Notes under the pieces: generated by a model
Seen by the model: the letters and a program-made list of their open reading frames with translations, nothing else
The model's database searches: none
What the model was told of the DNA's origin: nothing
Shown: piece after piece, positions 49,288 to 55,619 of the stretch
Layout: every line of letters begins with the position of its first letter
Position numbering within the stretch: position 1 is the stretch's first letter
Position numbers and translations under genes: made by a program
Origin: Cytophagales bacterium
GTDB taxonomy: Bacteria > Bacteroidota > Bacteroidia > Cytophagales > Spirosomataceae
Direction of reading: 5' to 3'
Assembly (NCBI GenBank): GCA_013298215.1
Contig: JAAFKE010000008.1
Coordinates: 1 to 64,000, forward strand
Length of the DNA: 64,000 nt

Positions 49288-50757
49288 ATGAAAAAGATAC
49301 TTAATTACATTCCTACCGTACCCTTGCTGACGGTTTTACTCACGCTGGGATCGTGCAAAGACGTGTTGGACGTGAAACCGCGTCTGGCGGTTGATCTGGG
49401 CTCGGCCTACACTACGCCCGAAGCCCTTACTGCGGCCTTAAATGGTGTTTATGACCTCATTCAAAGCACCAACTTGTACGGCCGAGACCTAATTGCGATT
49501 CCTGAGGCACTGGCCGACAACGGACGCGCCACCAACAAGTCGGGCCGACTGAACCCTGAATTTCAAAACCAAATTGGTTCGCACTTTATCAATTGGACAA
49601 ACGCCTACATTGCCATCAACCGCGCCAATCTGATTTTGAGGAGCTTGCCAAACGTAACTGCCGCCCAAGCCACCAAAGATGCCATCGAGGGCCAGTGCTT
49701 GTTTTTGCGCGGATTGCTGTATTTTGACCTCATGCGCGCCTACGCCTACACGCCCCGCGCCATCGTGGCGGCCCAAAATCTGGGTGGTGTGCCGCTCCTG
49801 ATCGAAGGCGTGTCGGACTTAGACAAAGTGACCCTGCCCGCCCGCGCCAGCATCGACGATTGCTACAAGCAAATTACGGCCGACCTCACCGCCGCCGCCG
49901 CCAAACTAACCAACAACAACACCACTTTTGTGCGGCCGTTTTTTGCGAGCCGGGGCGCAGCCCAAGCGCTGGCATCGCGCGTGGAGTTGTACAAAGGAAA
50001 CTGGGCCGATGCTGTTCGTCTCTCAACTGAGGCGTTGGCATCGGGCGTGGGCGTGTTTCAGAGCACACCAGCCGCCTACGTGGCCGGCTGGCGGGCGGCT
50101 TCGCACCCCGAGTCTATGTTCGAGTTGTCGTTTCAGGCCAACGAAAACATTGGGGTGAACTTCTCGCTGCAAACCACCTACTCGACCCTCCGCACGCTCG
50201 GCTTGCGCACAGCCACCGCTGGCTTTGGCGACTTGGTGCCAACGGCAACGCTGCTGACTAACCTGGGCATAACCCGCACCGTGGACGTAGTGACGCGCGG
50301 CAACGACGTGCGCGCCCAACTCTACGAATTGGGCACGACAGGCCGCGGCCCAGCCGAAATAGAGTGCACCAAATTTTTGGGCAAAGGTGGCCAAGTGAAC
50401 CAAGACAACGTACCCATAATCAGGGTTTCTGAGCTGTTTTTGAACCGCGCCGAAGCCAACTACGAGCTGGGCAATTTTCCAGCGGCACTCACCGACGTGA
50501 ACTTGATTCGGACCCGCGCGGGGCTCACTGCGCTGGCGGCCACCGTTACGGGCCCCGCTCTTTTGGAAGAAATCCTAAACCAGCGTCGCCTTGAGTTTGC
50601 TTTTGAAGGACACCGTTTCTTCGACCTGAAACGACGTGGTTTGGATCTCGTCAAGCTGCCGCGCAACATTGCGTTCACCGATTTTTTGATCTTGGCACGC
50701 CTACCGACCGCCCAGATTTCACTCAATCCGAACCTAAAACAAAATTTTGGGTACTAA
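49288..50757 (+). CDS. SusD/RagB-family nutrient-binding lipoprotein
   Basis: A 489-residue surface lipoprotein with lipobox LGSC (residues about 20-23). TPR-like helices with SusD signatures: ALTAALNGVYDLIQSTNLYG, YIAINRANLILRSLPNV, GQCLFLRGLLYFDLMRAYAY, and ILNQRRLEFAFEGHRFFDLK near the C-terminus. It forms the lid over the SusC barrel. It is 234 bp downstream of SusC across an AT-rich gap without other genes. Confidence 0.95.
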   Translation: MKKILNYIPTVPLLTVLLTLGSCKDVLDVKPRLAVDLGSAYTTPEALTAALNGVYDLIQSTNLYGRDLIAIPEALADNGRATNKSGRLNPEFQNQIGSHFINWTNAYIAINRANLILRSLPNVTAAQATKDAIEGQCLFLRGLLYFDLMRAYAYTPRAIVAAQNLGGVPLLIEGVSDLDKVTLPARASIDDCYKQITADLTAAAAKLTNNNTTFVRPFFASRGAAQALASRVELYKGNWADAVRLSTEALASGVGVFQSTPAAYVAGWRAASHPESMFELSFQANENIGVNFSLQTTYSTLRTLGLRTATAGFGDLVPTATLLTNLGITRTVDVVTRGNDVRAQLYELGTTGRGPAEIECTKFLGKGGQVNQDNVPIIRVSELFLNRAEANYELGNFPAALTDVNLIRTRAGLTALAATVTGPALLEEILNQRRLEFAFEGHRFFDLKRRGLDLVKLPRNIAFTDFLILARLPTAQISLNPNLKQNFGY

Positions 50758-50782
50758 AACCTCCACTTTAATCCGCAATAAA

Positions 50783-51262
50783 ATGAAGAAATATTTTTTA
50801 AATACATTCATCGCAGCCGCGCTGGTAGCTGGTCTAAGCGCGTGTTTCGAGAAGCCAAACCTAAGCTACAGTGGCCCCACCGTGGTGGAGTTTGATGCCG
50901 CCGTGACAACTGCTCCCGCAGTGGGGCGCACCTTCCCGCTCATAGCCACCACCAACGGGGCAGGCCAACTAACCACCCGGGTGAACCTCGTAGGCCCACA
51001 ACGCGCCACGGAATCGGTCATCAAAATTGGGGTTGATGCCGCCGCCAGCACCGCCGTTGAGGGCACACACTACCGCATTTTGAACAACAAAACGGCCACC
51101 ATACCCGCCCAAAGCAGTTTTGGTACCGTAACGATCGAGATATTGCGAGTGCCCGCCCAAGCCAACACCACCCTCACGTTGGTGCTGCTGCTCGAAGGCA
51201 ACGGCACGGATATATTGCCCAGCGAAAACTTCAAGCGCGTAGGATACAACATCAGGTTGTAA
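50783..51262 (+). CDS. lipoprotein of the SusCD operon, Calx/DUF-like beta-sandwich
   Basis: A 159-residue lipoprotein: signal MKKYFLNTFIAAALVAGLSAC with lipobox LSAC. The mature part is a beta-sandwich whose second half (AAASTAVEGTHYRILNNKTA, IPAQSSFGTVTIEILR) follows the Calx-beta/DUF1735-DUF4843-like pattern seen in accessory SusE/F-position proteins. It starts 25 bp after SusD and ends at a strong terminator, so it is the last gene of the operon and probably a surface-exposed binding accessory. Confidence 0.75.
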   Translation: MKKYFLNTFIAAALVAGLSACFEKPNLSYSGPTVVEFDAAVTTAPAVGRTFPLIATTNGAGQLTTRVNLVGPQRATESVIKIGVDAAASTAVEGTHYRILNNKTATIPAQSSFGTVTIEILRVPAQANTTLTLVLLLEGNGTDILPSENFKRVGYNIRL

Positions 51263-51282
51263 AGACTGCGTTTTGAACACTT

Positions 51283-51322
51283 AACAAAAAAAGCGACGTT
51301 TAACAGCGTCGCTTTTTTTGTT
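51283..51322 (+). terminator. strong terminator of the SusCD operon
   Basis: A 16-bp perfect stem (51283-51298 with 51307-51322) of AACA7GCGACG type with an 8-nt loop; the arm contains T7 on the plus strand. It can act in both directions. Confidence 0.92.
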
Positions 51323-51595
51323 GGCCAATTTTGTAATAATATCTTGTCATGCCGAACGATAGTGAGGTATCTGAGCGCAACAGCCCGAAGCGGATTTAGG
51401 TTCTTCGCCACGCTGGTTACTGCTCAGAACAACAAAAATCACTACCTCACAATCACGAAGTTAGGGCTCAAAATGGCACCGTTGTTGTACGGATTGAAAT
51501 AAAACCAATTACATTTACTGGAAAGTAGGTGGTGGGGCCAAAACCACGCCCTGGCACACGTTGGCAAACCACTGAAAAAGAACGAATTGGGACTT
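51323..51595. other. intergenic region with a possible dispersed element
   Basis: After the terminator, 51347-51440 carries TCATGCCGAACGATAGTGAG and later TTCTTCGCCACGCTGGTTAC. This pattern resembles the GTCATGCCGAAC/TTCTTCGC-type intergenic elements common in bacterial genomes; only one copy is in this window. 51441-51560, read on the minus strand, gives FYFNPYNNGAILSPNFVIVR then a stop, possibly the tail of a lost gene. No promoter is clear for the methylase gene that follows. Confidence 0.3.
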
Positions 51596-52624
51596 ATGGC
51601 CGAACAAATGAACAAACTTATACTGGGCGACAACCTCGAAATTTTAAGAAATATAGCCGCAGAAAGCGTGGACTTGGTTTACATTGATCCACCTTTTTTC
51701 TCGAACCGAACCTACGAAGTAATTTGGGGCGACAGTGGCGAAGTTCGCAGTTTTGAAGACCGCTTTTCGGGTGGCATGGATCATTACATTGGCTGGCTCA
51801 AGGAGCGAATCATCGAGATGCACCGCATCTTAAAACCCACCGGCTCTATTTTTGTGCATTGCGACTGGCACGCCGATGCGTACATCCGAGTACAGATTTT
51901 AGACAGAATTTTTGGTGGGAGTAACTTTGTAAATCATATCGTTTGGCAAAGGTCTTCTACCCACAATGACACAAAACAAGGAGCAAAACATTTCGGAAGA
52001 ATTACCGACAGTATATTTTATTACGCAAAAAATATAAAAAAGTACACCTTTAACCCGCAACACGAAAGATACACGTCCGATTATATTGCCCAAAGCTACG
52101 GCAAAACAGACGAACACGGGCGAAGATTCAAAGCATCAGACCTGTCGGCGGCAAAAGGTGGAGGTGACACTTCTTTTGAATGGAAAGGTGTAAAACCTCC
52201 TACTGGTAGGTATTGGGCGTATTCAAAAGCCAATTTTGAGCTTTTTGAAAGTGAAAACAAAATTTATTATTCCGAGACTGGAAAGCCCTACTTGAAACAG
52301 TATTTGGATGAAATGCCAGGGACATCCGTTGATTCTCTGTGGTTCAACTGCGTTTTCAAAAATCAGAAAGAACGCATCGGCTACCCAACCCAAAAACCAG
52401 AGGCACTGCTTAAACGAATCATCGAAACGGCAACCAACGAGGGCGACACAGTTTTGGATTGTTTTGTGGGCGGTGGCACGACCGTGGCCGTGGCCGACAA
52501 ACTGAACCGGCAATGGATTGGCATTGACCAAAGCGTGCAGGCCGTAAAAGTGACCGAATATAGACTGAACGCGCAAAATGCCATCTTTGAAACTATTAAA
52601 GTTACAGATTTATGCACCCAATGA
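51596..52624 (+). CDS. beta-class DNA methyltransferase, stand-alone copy
   Basis: A 342-residue N6-adenine-type methyltransferase with permuted (beta) motif order: motif IV VYIDPPFFSNRTYEV near the N-terminus, a central target-recognition region, and motif I VLDCFVGGGTTVAVA near residue 288. The first ~106 and last ~45 conserved residues are the same as in the next gene, but the middle (from NFVNHIVWQRSSTHND to YPTQKPEALL) is different. ATG 51596 or 51608 may be the start; 51608 aligns with the second copy. Its stop overlaps the next ATG (ATGA, 52621-52624). The base modified is inferred from DPPF. Confidence 0.9.
   Translation: MAEQMNKLILGDNLEILRNIAAESVDLVYIDPPFFSNRTYEVIWGDSGEVRSFEDRFSGGMDHYIGWLKERIIEMHRILKPTGSIFVHCDWHADAYIRVQILDRIFGGSNFVNHIVWQRSSTHNDTKQGAKHFGRITDSIFYYAKNIKKYTFNPQHERYTSDYIAQSYGKTDEHGRRFKASDLSAAKGGGDTSFEWKGVKPPTGRYWAYSKANFELFESENKIYYSETGKPYLKQYLDEMPGTSVDSLWFNCVFKNQKERIGYPTQKPEALLKRIIETATNEGDTVLDCFVGGGTTVAVADKLNRQWIGIDQSVQAVKVTEYRLNAQNAIFETIKVTDLCTQ
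51608..51926 (+). repeat. direct repeat A, copy 1 (5' part of methylase 1)
   Basis: 51608-51918 equals 52621-52931 at all but two positions, both silent; similarity ends by about 51926. The spacing is 1013 bp. Confidence 0.95.
52436..52575 (+). repeat. direct repeat B, copy 1 (3' part of methylase 1)
   Basis: This 140-bp stretch holds motif I and matches 53512-53651 with one mismatch. The spacing is 1076 bp. Confidence 0.95.
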
Positions 52625-52939
52625 ACAAACTTATACTGGGCGACAACCTTGAAATTTTAAGAAATATAGCCGCAGAAAGCGTGGACTTGGTTTACATTGA
52701 TCCGCCTTTTTTCTCGAACCGAACCTACGAAGTAATTTGGGGCGACAGTGGCGAAGTTCGCAGTTTTGAAGACCGCTTTTCGGGTGGCATGGATCATTAC
52801 ATTGGCTGGCTCAAGGAGCGAATCATCGAGATGCACCGCATCTTAAAACCCACCGGCTCTATTTTTGTGCATTGCGACTGGCACGCCGATGCGTACATCC
52901 GAGTACAGATTTTAGACAGAATTTTTGGTGGAAGTAATT
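52621..52939 (+). repeat. direct repeat A, copy 2 (5' part of methylase 2)
   Basis: Second copy of 51608-51926, identical except for two silent changes up to 52931. Confidence 0.95.
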
Positions 52940-54381
52940 TCAGAAATAAAATAACTTGGCAACGTTCAGATACACACAACGACGCAAAACATCAAGCGCC
53001 GAATGTTTGTGACGATATTTTTGTCTACTCAAAATCAGATAATTACACTTACAATGTTCAATACGGGCCTCACGCCGAGAAAACTTTAAGAGAATGGTAT
53101 CAATACATTGATTTTGAAGATGGAACTTCTCGAAAAATGACCAAAGAGGAACTTGAAACTCAAAAAATTGTATCAACTGTAAAGGGTCGAAGATTTAACG
53201 CTGATAATATGGCAAGCCCAAATCCTCGACCAAATTTAATGTATGAATATAAGGGTTATTCATATCCAGCGAAAGGTTGGCGGTACTCTTTGGAAACAAT
53301 GACAAAATTAGATGCACAAGGTAAATTGTTATTCCCAAAAGAAAAGAGTGGTCGAATAATGTTGAAAAGGTATCTTGATGAGCAAAAAGGCTCTGTTATC
53401 TCTGATTTATGGAATGATATTGACCAGATAAGAGGAAATTCAAAAGAAAAAATCGGCTATCCGACCCAAAAACCAATGAAACTTTTGGAGCGCATCATAC
53501 AAATGGCCAGCAACGAGGGCGACACGGTTTTGGATTGTTTTGTGGGCGGTGGCACGACCGTGGCCGTGGCCGACAAACTGAACCGGCAATGGATTGGCAT
53601 TGACCAAAGCGTGCAGGCCGTAAAAGTGACCGAATATAGACTGAACGCGCAGCAAGATTTGTTTTCAAAACCGTTTACGGTCACGCTGCACAAGTACGAT
53701 TATGACACTTTGCGCTACAAAGATGCGTTCGAGTTTGAAACTTGGGCAGTGCAACAGTTTGGCGGCACTGCCAACGCAAAACAGCGCGGCGACCTTGGAA
53801 TTGATGGCATTAAAAAAGCCCCCGCCGGGGGTTTGGGGGCTGCCCCAATTCAGGTGAAACGCAGCGACAACATTGGACGGAACGTGGTAGATAATTTTCA
53901 TTCGGCCGTGATGCGCTACGACAAGGCGATCTACGACAAAAACAAAGCCGAAAAATTGCCAGTTGGCTACATCATTGCGTTTTCGTTTGGCAAGGGAGCA
54001 ATTCAGGAAGTGGCTCGGCTATCGAACAATGAGGGCGTGTTGATTAAACTAATTACGGTAGAAAGTTTCGTTCCGATTGCCAAGAAACCCAATTTGACGG
54101 TTGAAATAAAGGATTTGGGCGTTGCGAAAAACCTGCACGAAATCGAGTTTATAGCCACCGTGAAGCGCGAAGCTGGGGCAACCTCCCACTTTTTTGCGTG
54201 GGATTTCTCGTACAAAAATCCTAAGTTTATACCAGAAATTTACTTCGACAAAGACGGCAGGCAGACCTACAAATTCAAGGCTGGAACCCACGAGATTGCC
54301 GTAAAGGTGGTGGACGACGAAGGACTTGAAAGCATCGAAATCGTGAAACTGAAAGTAAACGGTACCATTGAGCGGAAATGA
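52621..54381 (+). CDS. DNA methyltransferase fused to Mrr-like nuclease and Ig/PKD-like domain
   Basis: A 586-residue restriction-modification fusion. Residues 1-~340 are a beta-class methyltransferase (DPPF at 27-30; DCFVGGGTT at 305-313) with its own recognition region at about 107-297. Residues ~360-480 form a PD-(D/E)XK domain of the Mrr type: FETWAVQQFGG, GDLGIDG (Asp395) and IQVKRS (Gln411-Val-Lys413), then GYIIAFSFGKGA. Residues ~495-586 read as an Ig/PKD-like sandwich (FKAGTHEIAVKVVDDEGLES), unusual in a cytoplasmic enzyme. Methylation and cleavage in one chain recalls type IIG/IIC enzymes. The centre is AT-rich, suggesting import. The stop overlaps the next gene by 4 bp. Confidence 0.88.
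   Translation: MNKLILGDNLEILRNIAAESVDLVYIDPPFFSNRTYEVIWGDSGEVRSFEDRFSGGMDHYIGWLKERIIEMHRILKPTGSIFVHCDWHADAYIRVQILDRIFGGSNFRNKITWQRSDTHNDAKHQAPNVCDDIFVYSKSDNYTYNVQYGPHAEKTLREWYQYIDFEDGTSRKMTKEELETQKIVSTVKGRRFNADNMASPNPRPNLMYEYKGYSYPAKGWRYSLETMTKLDAQGKLLFPKEKSGRIMLKRYLDEQKGSVISDLWNDIDQIRGNSKEKIGYPTQKPMKLLERIIQMASNEGDTVLDCFVGGGTTVAVADKLNRQWIGIDQSVQAVKVTEYRLNAQQDLFSKPFTVTLHKYDYDTLRYKDAFEFETWAVQQFGGTANAKQRGDLGIDGIKKAPAGGLGAAPIQVKRSDNIGRNVVDNFHSAVMRYDKAIYDKNKAEKLPVGYIIAFSFGKGAIQEVARLSNNEGVLIKLITVESFVPIAKKPNLTVEIKDLGVAKNLHEIEFIATVKREAGATSHFFAWDFSYKNPKFIPEIYFDKDGRQTYKFKAGTHEIAVKVVDDEGLESIEIVKLKVNGTIERK
53512..53651 (+). repeat. direct repeat B, copy 2 (end of methylase domain 2)
   Basis: Second copy of 52436-52575 with one mismatch. 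The nuclease domain begins soon after it ends. Confidence 0.95.
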
Positions 54382-55619
54382 CAATGAAAAAAGAAAAAAA
54401 ACGCAGCAGACGGAGTTTTATCCGCAAAAGCGTACTCGCATATGTGGCGGGAGTTTCGGGTATTGAGGTCGTTTTGGGCAACGGCGCGCCCCCACAATAC
54501 GCCACATTGCCCACCGACAACGCTCTCGACGGCAAGCACCAAGACCTGCTGATACTGAGCGACAAACCATGGGTAGTAGAAACGCCAGCGCATTTGCTCG
54601 ACGACGACGTGACTCCGTTCGAGAAGATGTTTGTGCGGAACAACGGGATCGTTCCCGAGCAAAAAATAGACGAAAACACCTGGACGCTCACCATCGGGGG
54701 CGAGTCGGCAAAGACCAAAAAAACCTATACTATTCAAGACCTTAAAGCCAAATTTGAGGTCTATACCTACCAGTTGGTGCTCGAATGCGGCGGCAATGGC
54801 AGGTCGGGCTTTGTGCCGCAAGGAGCTGGCAACCAGTGGGATCAGGGAGGTGTGAGCTGCGCCGAATGGACGGGCGTGAGGCTCAAAGACGTGCTGGCCG
54901 ACGTGGGGCTAACTGATAATGCCGTTTACGTTGGCTACTACGGCCAAGACCTGCACCCCAGCCGAGACCCCGCCAAGGCTGCCATCTCGCGGGGTGTGCC
55001 CATCAAAAAGGCGTTGGAAGACGAAACCTTGTTGGCCTGGCAAATGAACGGCCAACCCATGCCACTGCAGCATGGTTTCCCGCTGCGCTTGGTGGTGGGC
55101 GGGTGGCCAGCGTCGGTGTCGGGCAAATGGCTGCACACCATACTGGTGAGAGATAAAGAACACGACGGCACCAAAATGGACGGCCACAGCTACCGGATGC
55201 CACGTCTGCCGATTATGCCCGGTCAAAAACTAAGCGAAACGCCCGACAACTTTAAGATTATTGAGTCTATGCCAGTGAAATCGTTGATTACCTTCCCGAA
55301 AACGGGTTTTGTGGCCGACACCGCCGCACCCGTGCGCCTGCGCGGCCACGCTTGGGCGGGCGATCTGGAGGTTGCGGAGGTGCATATTTCAACCGATTTT
55401 GGTGCGACTTGGCAAAAATGCGCATTGAACCCGCCCAAAAACAGGCTATCGTGGCAACGGTGGGAAACCACGGTGAGTTTTGCCCAGAAGGGCTACTACG
55501 AAGTTTGGGTGCGGGCCACCGACCAAAACGGCGTGGCTCAACCCATGGTCATTCCAGCTTGGAACCCTGGCGGGTATTTGAACAACTCCTGCCACCGCAT
55601 AGCCCTTAAAATAGCTTGA
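54378..55619 (+). CDS. Tat-exported sulfite-oxidase-like molybdoenzyme
   Basis: A 413-residue protein with a twin-arginine signal (SRRSFIRKS at 10-18). The oxidoreductase molybdopterin-binding domain has the Mo-ligand cysteine in LVLECGGNGRSGF (Cys137), VSCAEWTGVRLKDVL and PLRLVVGGWPASVSGKWL. The C-terminal Mo-co dimerisation domain runs from about residue 300 (RLRGHAWAGDLEVAEVHIS). It should oxidise sulfite to sulfate in the periplasm. The start may be ATG 54378 (overlapping the nuclease-fusion stop) or ATG 54384. The next gene carries a haem-c domain, the expected electron acceptor. Confidence 0.92.
   Translation: MTMKKEKKRSRRSFIRKSVLAYVAGVSGIEVVLGNGAPPQYATLPTDNALDGKHQDLLILSDKPWVVETPAHLLDDDVTPFEKMFVRNNGIVPEQKIDENTWTLTIGGESAKTKKTYTIQDLKAKFEVYTYQLVLECGGNGRSGFVPQGAGNQWDQGGVSCAEWTGVRLKDVLADVGLTDNAVYVGYYGQDLHPSRDPAKAAISRGVPIKKALEDETLLAWQMNGQPMPLQHGFPLRLVVGGWPASVSGKWLHTILVRDKEHDGTKMDGHSYRMPRLPIMPGQKLSETPDNFKIIESMPVKSLITFPKTGFVADTAAPVRLRGHAWAGDLEVAEVHISTDFGATWQKCALNPPKNRLSWQRWETTVSFAQKGYYEVWVRATDQNGVAQPMVIPAWNPGGYLNNSCHRIALKIA

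Follow-up and report, generated by a model that had tools for sequence, protein, structure and literature searches.

Tandem beta-class DNA methyltransferase genes with near-identical ends and different recognition regions, one of them joined to a predicted Mrr-like nuclease

Our analysis concerns two overlapping genes, here called copies A and B, in a 64,000-nucleotide stretch of a Cytophagales genome (assembly GCA_013298215.1, contig JAAFKE010000008.1, positions 1 to 64,000; the window, below, means the whole of this stretch). Both genes encode DNA methyltransferases of one family, which have nearly the same ends and different centres, and only the second, B, continues into an Mrr-like nuclease domain. 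We consider it probable that B is a Type IIC-like restriction enzyme standing beside a methylase of a second specificity, A, which is able to donate its centre, and that the ends of the two copies undergo conversion while their central cassettes are exchanged. Homogenised ends, centres that move as cassettes across the family, a tandem that recurs in other genomes and paper recombination products that stay in frame are the observations on which this reading is built.

Copy A (51596-52624) begins at the ATG at 51596 or 51608 and has 338 amino acids counted from 51608; copy B (52621-54381) begins at the ATG at 52612 or 52621 and has 586 amino acids counted from 52621. All features of the locus lie on the forward strand. 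The overlap described in the initial annotation is confirmed by the sequence: at an ATGA junction the B start codon at 52621 overlaps the A stop codon TGA (52622-52624). The head repeats on the motif IV side, at 51607-51918 in A and 52620-52931 in B (312 bp, offset 1013), differ only at 51637 and 51691, and the motif X-I repeats, at 52435-52575 and 53511-53651 (141 bp, offset 1076), differ only at 52450. All three mismatches fall on the third base of a codon when the frames are read from the ATGs at 51608 and 52621, and none alters the protein; the exact runs within the repeats measure 30, 53, 227 and 125 bp. The near-identical ends around differing centres reported at the outset were thus found again. 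Between the repeats lie the centre of A (51919-52434, 516 bp, recognition-region type TRD1) and that of B (52932-53510, 579 bp, type TRD2), which had been called unrelated. This holds for ordinary DNA comparison, which yields no alignment, but not for the proteins, which are 34% identical (50 of 145 aligned residues) and can therefore be seen as diverged versions of one framework. Of the fourfold-degenerate sites in the first 107 codons, 3 of 37 differ between A and B, against 17 of 27 between A and the third family member of this genome, so that the identity of the ends is recent and not a matter of chance. That third copy (G000:C15:18615-20312; L002, L088) is a full fusion with a centre of type TRD3, 32% identical to that of A, and its head is 76% identical as DNA; for this last reason an ancient duplication was rejected as the source of the identity between A and B.

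Both copies match PF01555 (N6_N4_Mtase; E value 7.6e-48 for A), and B alone matches PF04471 (Mrr_cat; E value 3.5e-5, which passes the Pfam cut-off). In each protein DPPF (motif IV) is followed by the recognition region and then by motifs X and I (FVGGGT), which is the beta-class order. On the evidence of this motif order, invariant columns and PF01555, A and B are beta-class amino-methyltransferases; their methyl product is probably N6-methyladenine (m6A), judging from DPPF and from their m6A relatives. By the usual motif and class names of methyltransferases, DPPF suggests m6A. The AlphaFold2 model of B (50 sequences; mean predicted local distance difference test score, pLDDT, 85.3; predicted template modelling score, pTM, 0.71) superposes from residue 1 to about 345-357 on beta-class m6A methyltransferases: for residues 1 to about 345 the Z score, root-mean-square deviation (rmsd) and number of residues are 28.4, 2.7 and 242 with M.BceJIV, 27.9, 3.0 and 249 with M.RsrI, 27.7, 2.1 and 215 with CcrM, and 27.6, 1.8 and 211 with M.MboIIA. 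None of these four is known to be fused to a nuclease, which their chain lengths of 260-366 amino acids fit. Motif order, PF01555 and nearest folds thus agree with the beta-class layout, with the centre as recognition region, that had been proposed for both copies.

Behind the methylase part, residues 358-487 of B (53692-54081) make up a predicted Mrr-like PD-(D/Q)xK nuclease domain. The residues D395, Q411 and K413 (586-residue numbering from 52621) are invariant in 50 of 50 aligned fusions, and together with the restriction of PF04471 to B they support the earlier assignment of a nuclease to the second copy alone. In the C-terminal part, modelled separately (pLDDT 90.1), residues 358-487 match EndoMS (Z 8.6) and the nuclease domain of MspJI (Z 9.0, rmsd 2.9, 112 residues), in lists that re-align Foldseek matches and so leave room for families absent from them. 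The MspJI domain is likewise Mrr-like (PD-QxK) and has the Q-x-K motif in common with B (PMC12707154; here and below, a citation stands for the excerpts of the source that were available); MspJI is aimed at modified cytosine by an SRA-like domain, whereas the nuclease of B is fused to a methylase instead. It seems likelier that B cuts unmethylated sites than methylated ones, since a nuclease requiring methylation would attack the product of its own methylase. PADLOC, run on the nuclease part of B alone, returned no family at E values up to 1.

A scan of genomes for the family yielded 50 loci. The comparisons that follow use a non-redundant set of 57 members (53 fusions and 4 nuclease-less copies, or solos), for which head and motif X-I were required in one open reading frame (ORF) above set scores; L057 stays in this set though its contig cuts the 3' end. 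Partial or split copies were left out (among them L037/L103, L100, L041, L044, L047, L051-L054, L056, L058, L107-L110, L114, L115 and L125), as were L147-L151, which were fetched later. Of the copies set aside, L037/L103 and L100 are A-like, with 79 and 81% over the part of A that they match. The other fusions are 71-85% identical to B in their heads, 72-90% in X-I, 56-73% in their nucleases and 28-76% in their centres; these ranges, like the 44-fusion insertion alignment referred to below, come from an earlier set that counts one locus twice (L018 = L059).

The centres of this family behave as exchangeable cassettes. The 57 members fall into 26 centre clusters, formed at 50% identity over 75% of length and not necessarily equal to target specificities. 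The A-type centre is shared with seven nuclease fusions (L018, L028, L030, L031, L034, L101 and L113), the B-type centre with four (L009, L010, L013 and L022), and for three of the four solos the centre type is one seen elsewhere in fusions. Across the fusions, head identity correlates with nuclease identity (rho 0.39) and so does X-I identity (rho 0.29), with 0 of 300 permutations as high in either case; the correlation of head with X-I is weak (rho 0.18, 2 of 300). For the centre against head, X-I and nuclease, rho is 0.04, 0.01 and -0.01, and 88, 121 and 152 of the 300 permutations are as high. Where two fusions have nucleases at least 80% identical, their centres are under 50% in 23 of 24 pairs, the exception being L014/L016. 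On a tree of the flanks, itself of a quick kind, the A-type label requires seven changes for its seven rows, at least four of them forced by starred branches, and the B-type label five for five. Approximately unbiased tests on the flanks, with groups named from the centre clusters before the tree was built, reject a single clade for the A-type (p 5e-6) and B-type (p 3e-59) fusions, and likewise for the three A-type fusions with centres 80-90% alike (p 1e-39). Two pairs of paralogous fusions, L098/L113 in genome G152 and L122/L117 in G560, have head DNA 94-95% and DNA behind motif I 86-89% identical, and centres only 30-38% identical as protein; L113 bears the A-type centre. By these comparisons, recognition regions in the family have been exchanged against a different flank history.

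The tandem arrangement is also found elsewhere. Upstream DNA of at least 1.2 kb was available for 45 of the 53 fusions, and in three of these (the window, L024 and L136/L129) the fusion follows an intact methylase of the family that lacks the nuclease and is encoded on the same strand. A fourth has an upstream solo cut by the contig start (L036), and in two more a head-like protein that ends in a nucleotidyltransferase domain lies upstream (L020, L027). Contig C230 of G165 holds a solo copy followed, at the contig end, by 121/121 bp of a second head, and contig C275 starts with 97 bp identical to the X-I region of that solo and runs into a nuclease; we infer that these are the two parts of a fifth tandem. 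L136 has the same ATGA junction as the window, with heads 81.8% identical over 324 bp and X-I 86.4% over 199 bp; in L024 the corresponding identities are 90.5% (377 bp) and 96.5% (142 bp). When 56 sequences are ranked by closeness, each of the three intact tandems has the partner's head in first place (100, 83.7 and 99.0% as protein), and the partner's centre ranks 24, 44 and 4. The tail of A (52576-52624) carries a signature, [NQ]NAIF[ED], that is present in 4 of 4 full-length solos and in none of 107 fusion ORFs (a count that includes repeat fetches of the same loci); the cut L036 copy has no such tail. Because this tail occurs in no scanned fusion ORF, a fresh truncation of a fusion was discarded as the simple account of how A arose. 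A tail of their own together with partner-like heads is what local gene conversion would be expected to leave in the solos.

These observations suggest a model for the locus. The single central recognition region of B would serve its beta-class methylase and aim the C-terminal Mrr-like nuclease at unmethylated sites, and A would be a nuclease-less sister methylase of a second specificity. Gene conversion between the copies would keep the head and X-I repeats identical, and the repeats would be the entry points for cassette exchange; exact runs of this length suffice for RecA-type recombination. On paper, a recombination event between the heads removes 1013 bp to yield a TRD2 fusion of 586 amino acids, one between the X-I repeats removes 1076 bp to yield a TRD1 fusion of 565 amino acids, and conversion of the B centre by A again gives 565 amino acids, all in frame. 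Natural A-type fusions with a complete 5' end (6 of the 7) have 558-568 amino acids, so the predicted class of TRD1 fusion exists in other lineages, not necessarily by descent from this locus. Since centres move within the family and the A-type centre is joined to a nuclease elsewhere, the exchange through the repeats that the initial annotation envisaged is a realistic process. A TRD1 nuclease arising here would meet protected DNA, because A would already have methylated the TRD1 sites. We infer the enzyme activities, the difference in target sites, exchange at the locus itself and any benefit from it.

Several findings weigh against this model. No family member lies upstream in 39 of the 45 fusions, which therefore do not need a solo. 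The partner's X-I region ranks 1, 6 and 2 of 56 in the intact tandems, so that homogenisation of X-I is not general, and the heads of L136, only 81.8% identical, differ at 12 of 28 fourfold sites, so that conversion there is not recent and the process is not a constant one. In L024 the solo, which is fused to a nucleotidyltransferase, has only 51 amino acids in its centre, and for these reasons it may not methylate. In B itself, a GC-rich insertion of 8-9 residues (53818-53844), whose residues are present in 2 of 44 aligned fusions, lies in the nuclease loop between D395 and Q411 and thus between catalytic residues of the predicted nuclease. No recombinant of this locus was seen, in one genome without reads.

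In view of these points, the possibility that A is a mere by-product without selected function has to be treated as a serious rival, even if we hold it to be the less probable account. A would then be either a recently captured TRD1 methylase or a duplicate whose centre was replaced, with ends identical simply by recency; the recent identity of the ends agrees with this, as do the majority of fusions, which live without a solo, and the absence of an observed exchange at this locus. It sits less well with the recurrence of the tandem in separate genomes, with the tail common to the solos, and with the open frame and methylase motifs that A retains. An unlikely alternative makes A a guard methylase against other restriction enzymes of TRD1 specificity, for instance after their loss or the entry of a mobile copy. 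TRD1 does occur on nuclease fusions in other genomes, and in G113 the centre of the solo falls into one cluster with the centre of a different fusion from that genome (62% amino acid identity); no TRD1 nuclease, however, was found among the three family members of the window's genome, the C15 centre being 32% identical to that of A, and the tandem placement and homogenised ends are superfluous to such a guard.

The initial annotation had also raised the possibility that A and B each methylate one strand of a single asymmetric site, with gene conversion keeping the ends identical; B would then cut this site. Asymmetric sites can need two methylases, and Eco57I and BpuSI have accompanying methylases (PMC3874165). 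This explanation is lowered by the occurrence of both centre types on fusions that, with at least 1.2 kb of upstream DNA, have no upstream family member (5 of 5 A-type and 3 of 3 B-type), although L018, one of these five, has a different, 36% identical methylase 1.65 kb downstream. The centres of tandem partners are, by the ranks given above, no closer than background, and an accompanying methylase confines diversification (PMC3874165), yet the family has 26 centre types; we regard the two-strand explanation as slightly more unlikely still than a guard methylase. Least probable by far is an assembly artefact in which strain variants or distant copies were joined at the repeats. The locus evidence comes from one genome, the order of the two centres rests on assembly across exact repeats of 227 and 125 bp, short reads struggle with near-identical repeats, and two G165 contigs end in repeats of this kind; had the assembly swapped the two centres, the real locus would be the alternative arrangement. 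Against an artefact stand the tail and ATGA junction of A, the independent tandem of L136, which has the same junction and repeats diverged enough to assemble, and a genome that is 99.97% complete and 0.08% contaminated.

Returning to the model of a restriction enzyme beside a cassette donor, we add a further suggestion, which is tentative and which we think rather doubtful: the solo methylase may be a fail-safe reservoir of specificity, an expressed cassette that premethylates the genome for the next specificity of the nuclease. Recombination at X-I would then place the nuclease on DNA that is already protected, and an event at the heads would cost the cell a methylase that nothing relies on, so that it could survive either outcome. 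An enzyme that cuts and methylates from one recognition region changes its target safely only if the genome is protected at that moment. If the suggestion is true, a restriction system could retarget itself without self-killing by means of direct repeats and general recombination only. The locus and its relatives provide a natural test setting, bringing together a large number of interchangeable cassettes, a nuclease, and a sister copy that lacks the nuclease and carries another cassette, and the cassette set is a possible source of new specificities for a compact methylase-nuclease of about 500-620 amino acids.

Type IIC/IIG enzymes such as MmeI and Eco57I combine methylase and nuclease in one chain with one recognition region, and since this region is shared, cutting and methylation change specificity together (PMC4081073). 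B resembles them, as far as domains go, in holding PF01555 and PF04471 in one ORF, and BtgZI is by its description similar to B in its N-terminal methylase and C-terminal PD-D/EXK variant with Q (PMC4081073). Most Type IIC/IIG enzymes, however, belong to the gamma class and have the nuclease at the N-terminus, and BtgZI belongs to the alpha class (PMC4081073), whereas B has the beta-class order and an internal recognition region. We therefore class B as Type IIC-like and not as a typical IIG enzyme, on the grounds of its C-terminal nuclease, beta motif order and beta-class nearest solved folds. MmeI-type enzymes work without an accompanying methylase (PMC3874165). In the Type I and Type III systems of Helicobacter pylori variable recognition regions move between genes by recombination in conserved flanks (PMC3983042), as here, but the nuclease is encoded apart from the methylase or specificity gene; the present cassettes sit on single-chain fusions, on nuclease-less copies and in a tandem. 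In duplicated, inverting Type I hsdS loci, too, a choice of recognition domains is present at a single locus, with repeats on either side (PMC7394358). Unlike these, the tandem has direct repeats (the sole inverted pair in 50500-55500 is 22 nt at 77%), no recombinase among its seven neighbouring genes, a recognition region inside the methylase and a second copy that is apparently an intact methylase. Combined enzymes, movement of recognition domains in H. pylori Type I/III systems and duplicated specificity genes are accordingly already known (PMC4081073, PMC3983042, PMC7394358). In the open-licence literature, without supplements, we found no account of a beta-class single chain with a C-terminal Mrr-like nuclease, shuffling internal cassettes and a nuclease-less tandem copy whose ends are converted, and no mention of the pairing of N6_N4_Mtase with Mrr_cat, both of which are weak evidence.

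Genomes with a match to B at an E value of 1e-60 number 23 among 390 from the order, 6 among 395 from the phylum and 3 among 395 from the class; the draws overlap and each include the window's genome, and some of the matches are not full fusions. A search of relatives covered 59 genomes, none of the same genus, and 0 of the 36 same-family genomes among them reached this E value for B (best 9.0e-27), which suggests acquisition by transfer. Carriage on plasmids or phages is not supported: the plasmid protein search (E limit 1e-40) gave 14 records, with a single place where 80% or more of the query is spanned (31% identity), the phage protein search (limit 1e-30) gave 28, none covering over 80%, and all of these matches are under 60% identity. 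From viral contigs 521 relatives were obtained and 80 kept; three of these, L149-L151, score above 400 bits against the nuclease model, whereas much of the remainder consists of looser methylase-Mrr relatives. Methylase-Mrr relatives are common on viral-classed contigs (L149-L228), with a nuclease-model match in 45 of 82 loci, these being the 80 viral loci and two overlapping ones from G1080.

The tandem is preceded by genes for SusC, SusD and a DUF4843 protein and followed by those for a molybdopterin oxidoreductase, a hydrolase, a luciferase-like protein and MscS, and there is no recombinase family among these seven neighbours. The third copy, at C15, stands alone amid ordinary chromosomal ORFs. 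Residues 488-586 of B (54082-54378) form a predicted C-terminal PKD/Fn3-like beta-sandwich domain (Foldseek PKD1 domain, E value 2.0e-4; beta-sandwich rows at Z 8 to 9.8), and PKD and Fn3-like beta-sandwiches make up most entries in both fold-match lists for the C-terminal part. That the GC-rich insertion is a dispersed repeat is not supported, as its 23-base core occurs once in the genome with up to 2 mismatches allowed.

Several copies of the family (L041, L107, L137 and L047) are broken into two frames or pieces, and L047, a Spirochaetia record, has two broken fusions in succession. Simple-repeat phase variation received no support from the breaks in these four copies, where any runs are short (6 A or T; in L047, a brief AT stretch). 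The solo of L024 with its nucleotidyltransferase domain (PF01909) is followed by a HepT-like gene (PF01934; L024:3468-4845, G186:C173), an arrangement that resembles an MNT/HEPN toxin-antitoxin pair, and at L020:3872-4837 and L027:876-1889 the fusion is preceded by a head like those of the family, followed by a decayed methylase with a nucleotidyltransferase end. A full fusion in L032:1-2083 is immediately preceded by the terminal piece of a related nuclease part; the contig start may here cut through a tandem of two fusions. The small genomes G048 (1.6 Mb) and G041 (2.6 Mb) contain 46 and 26 methylase matches to B at E values up to 0.001, which is unusually many for their size.

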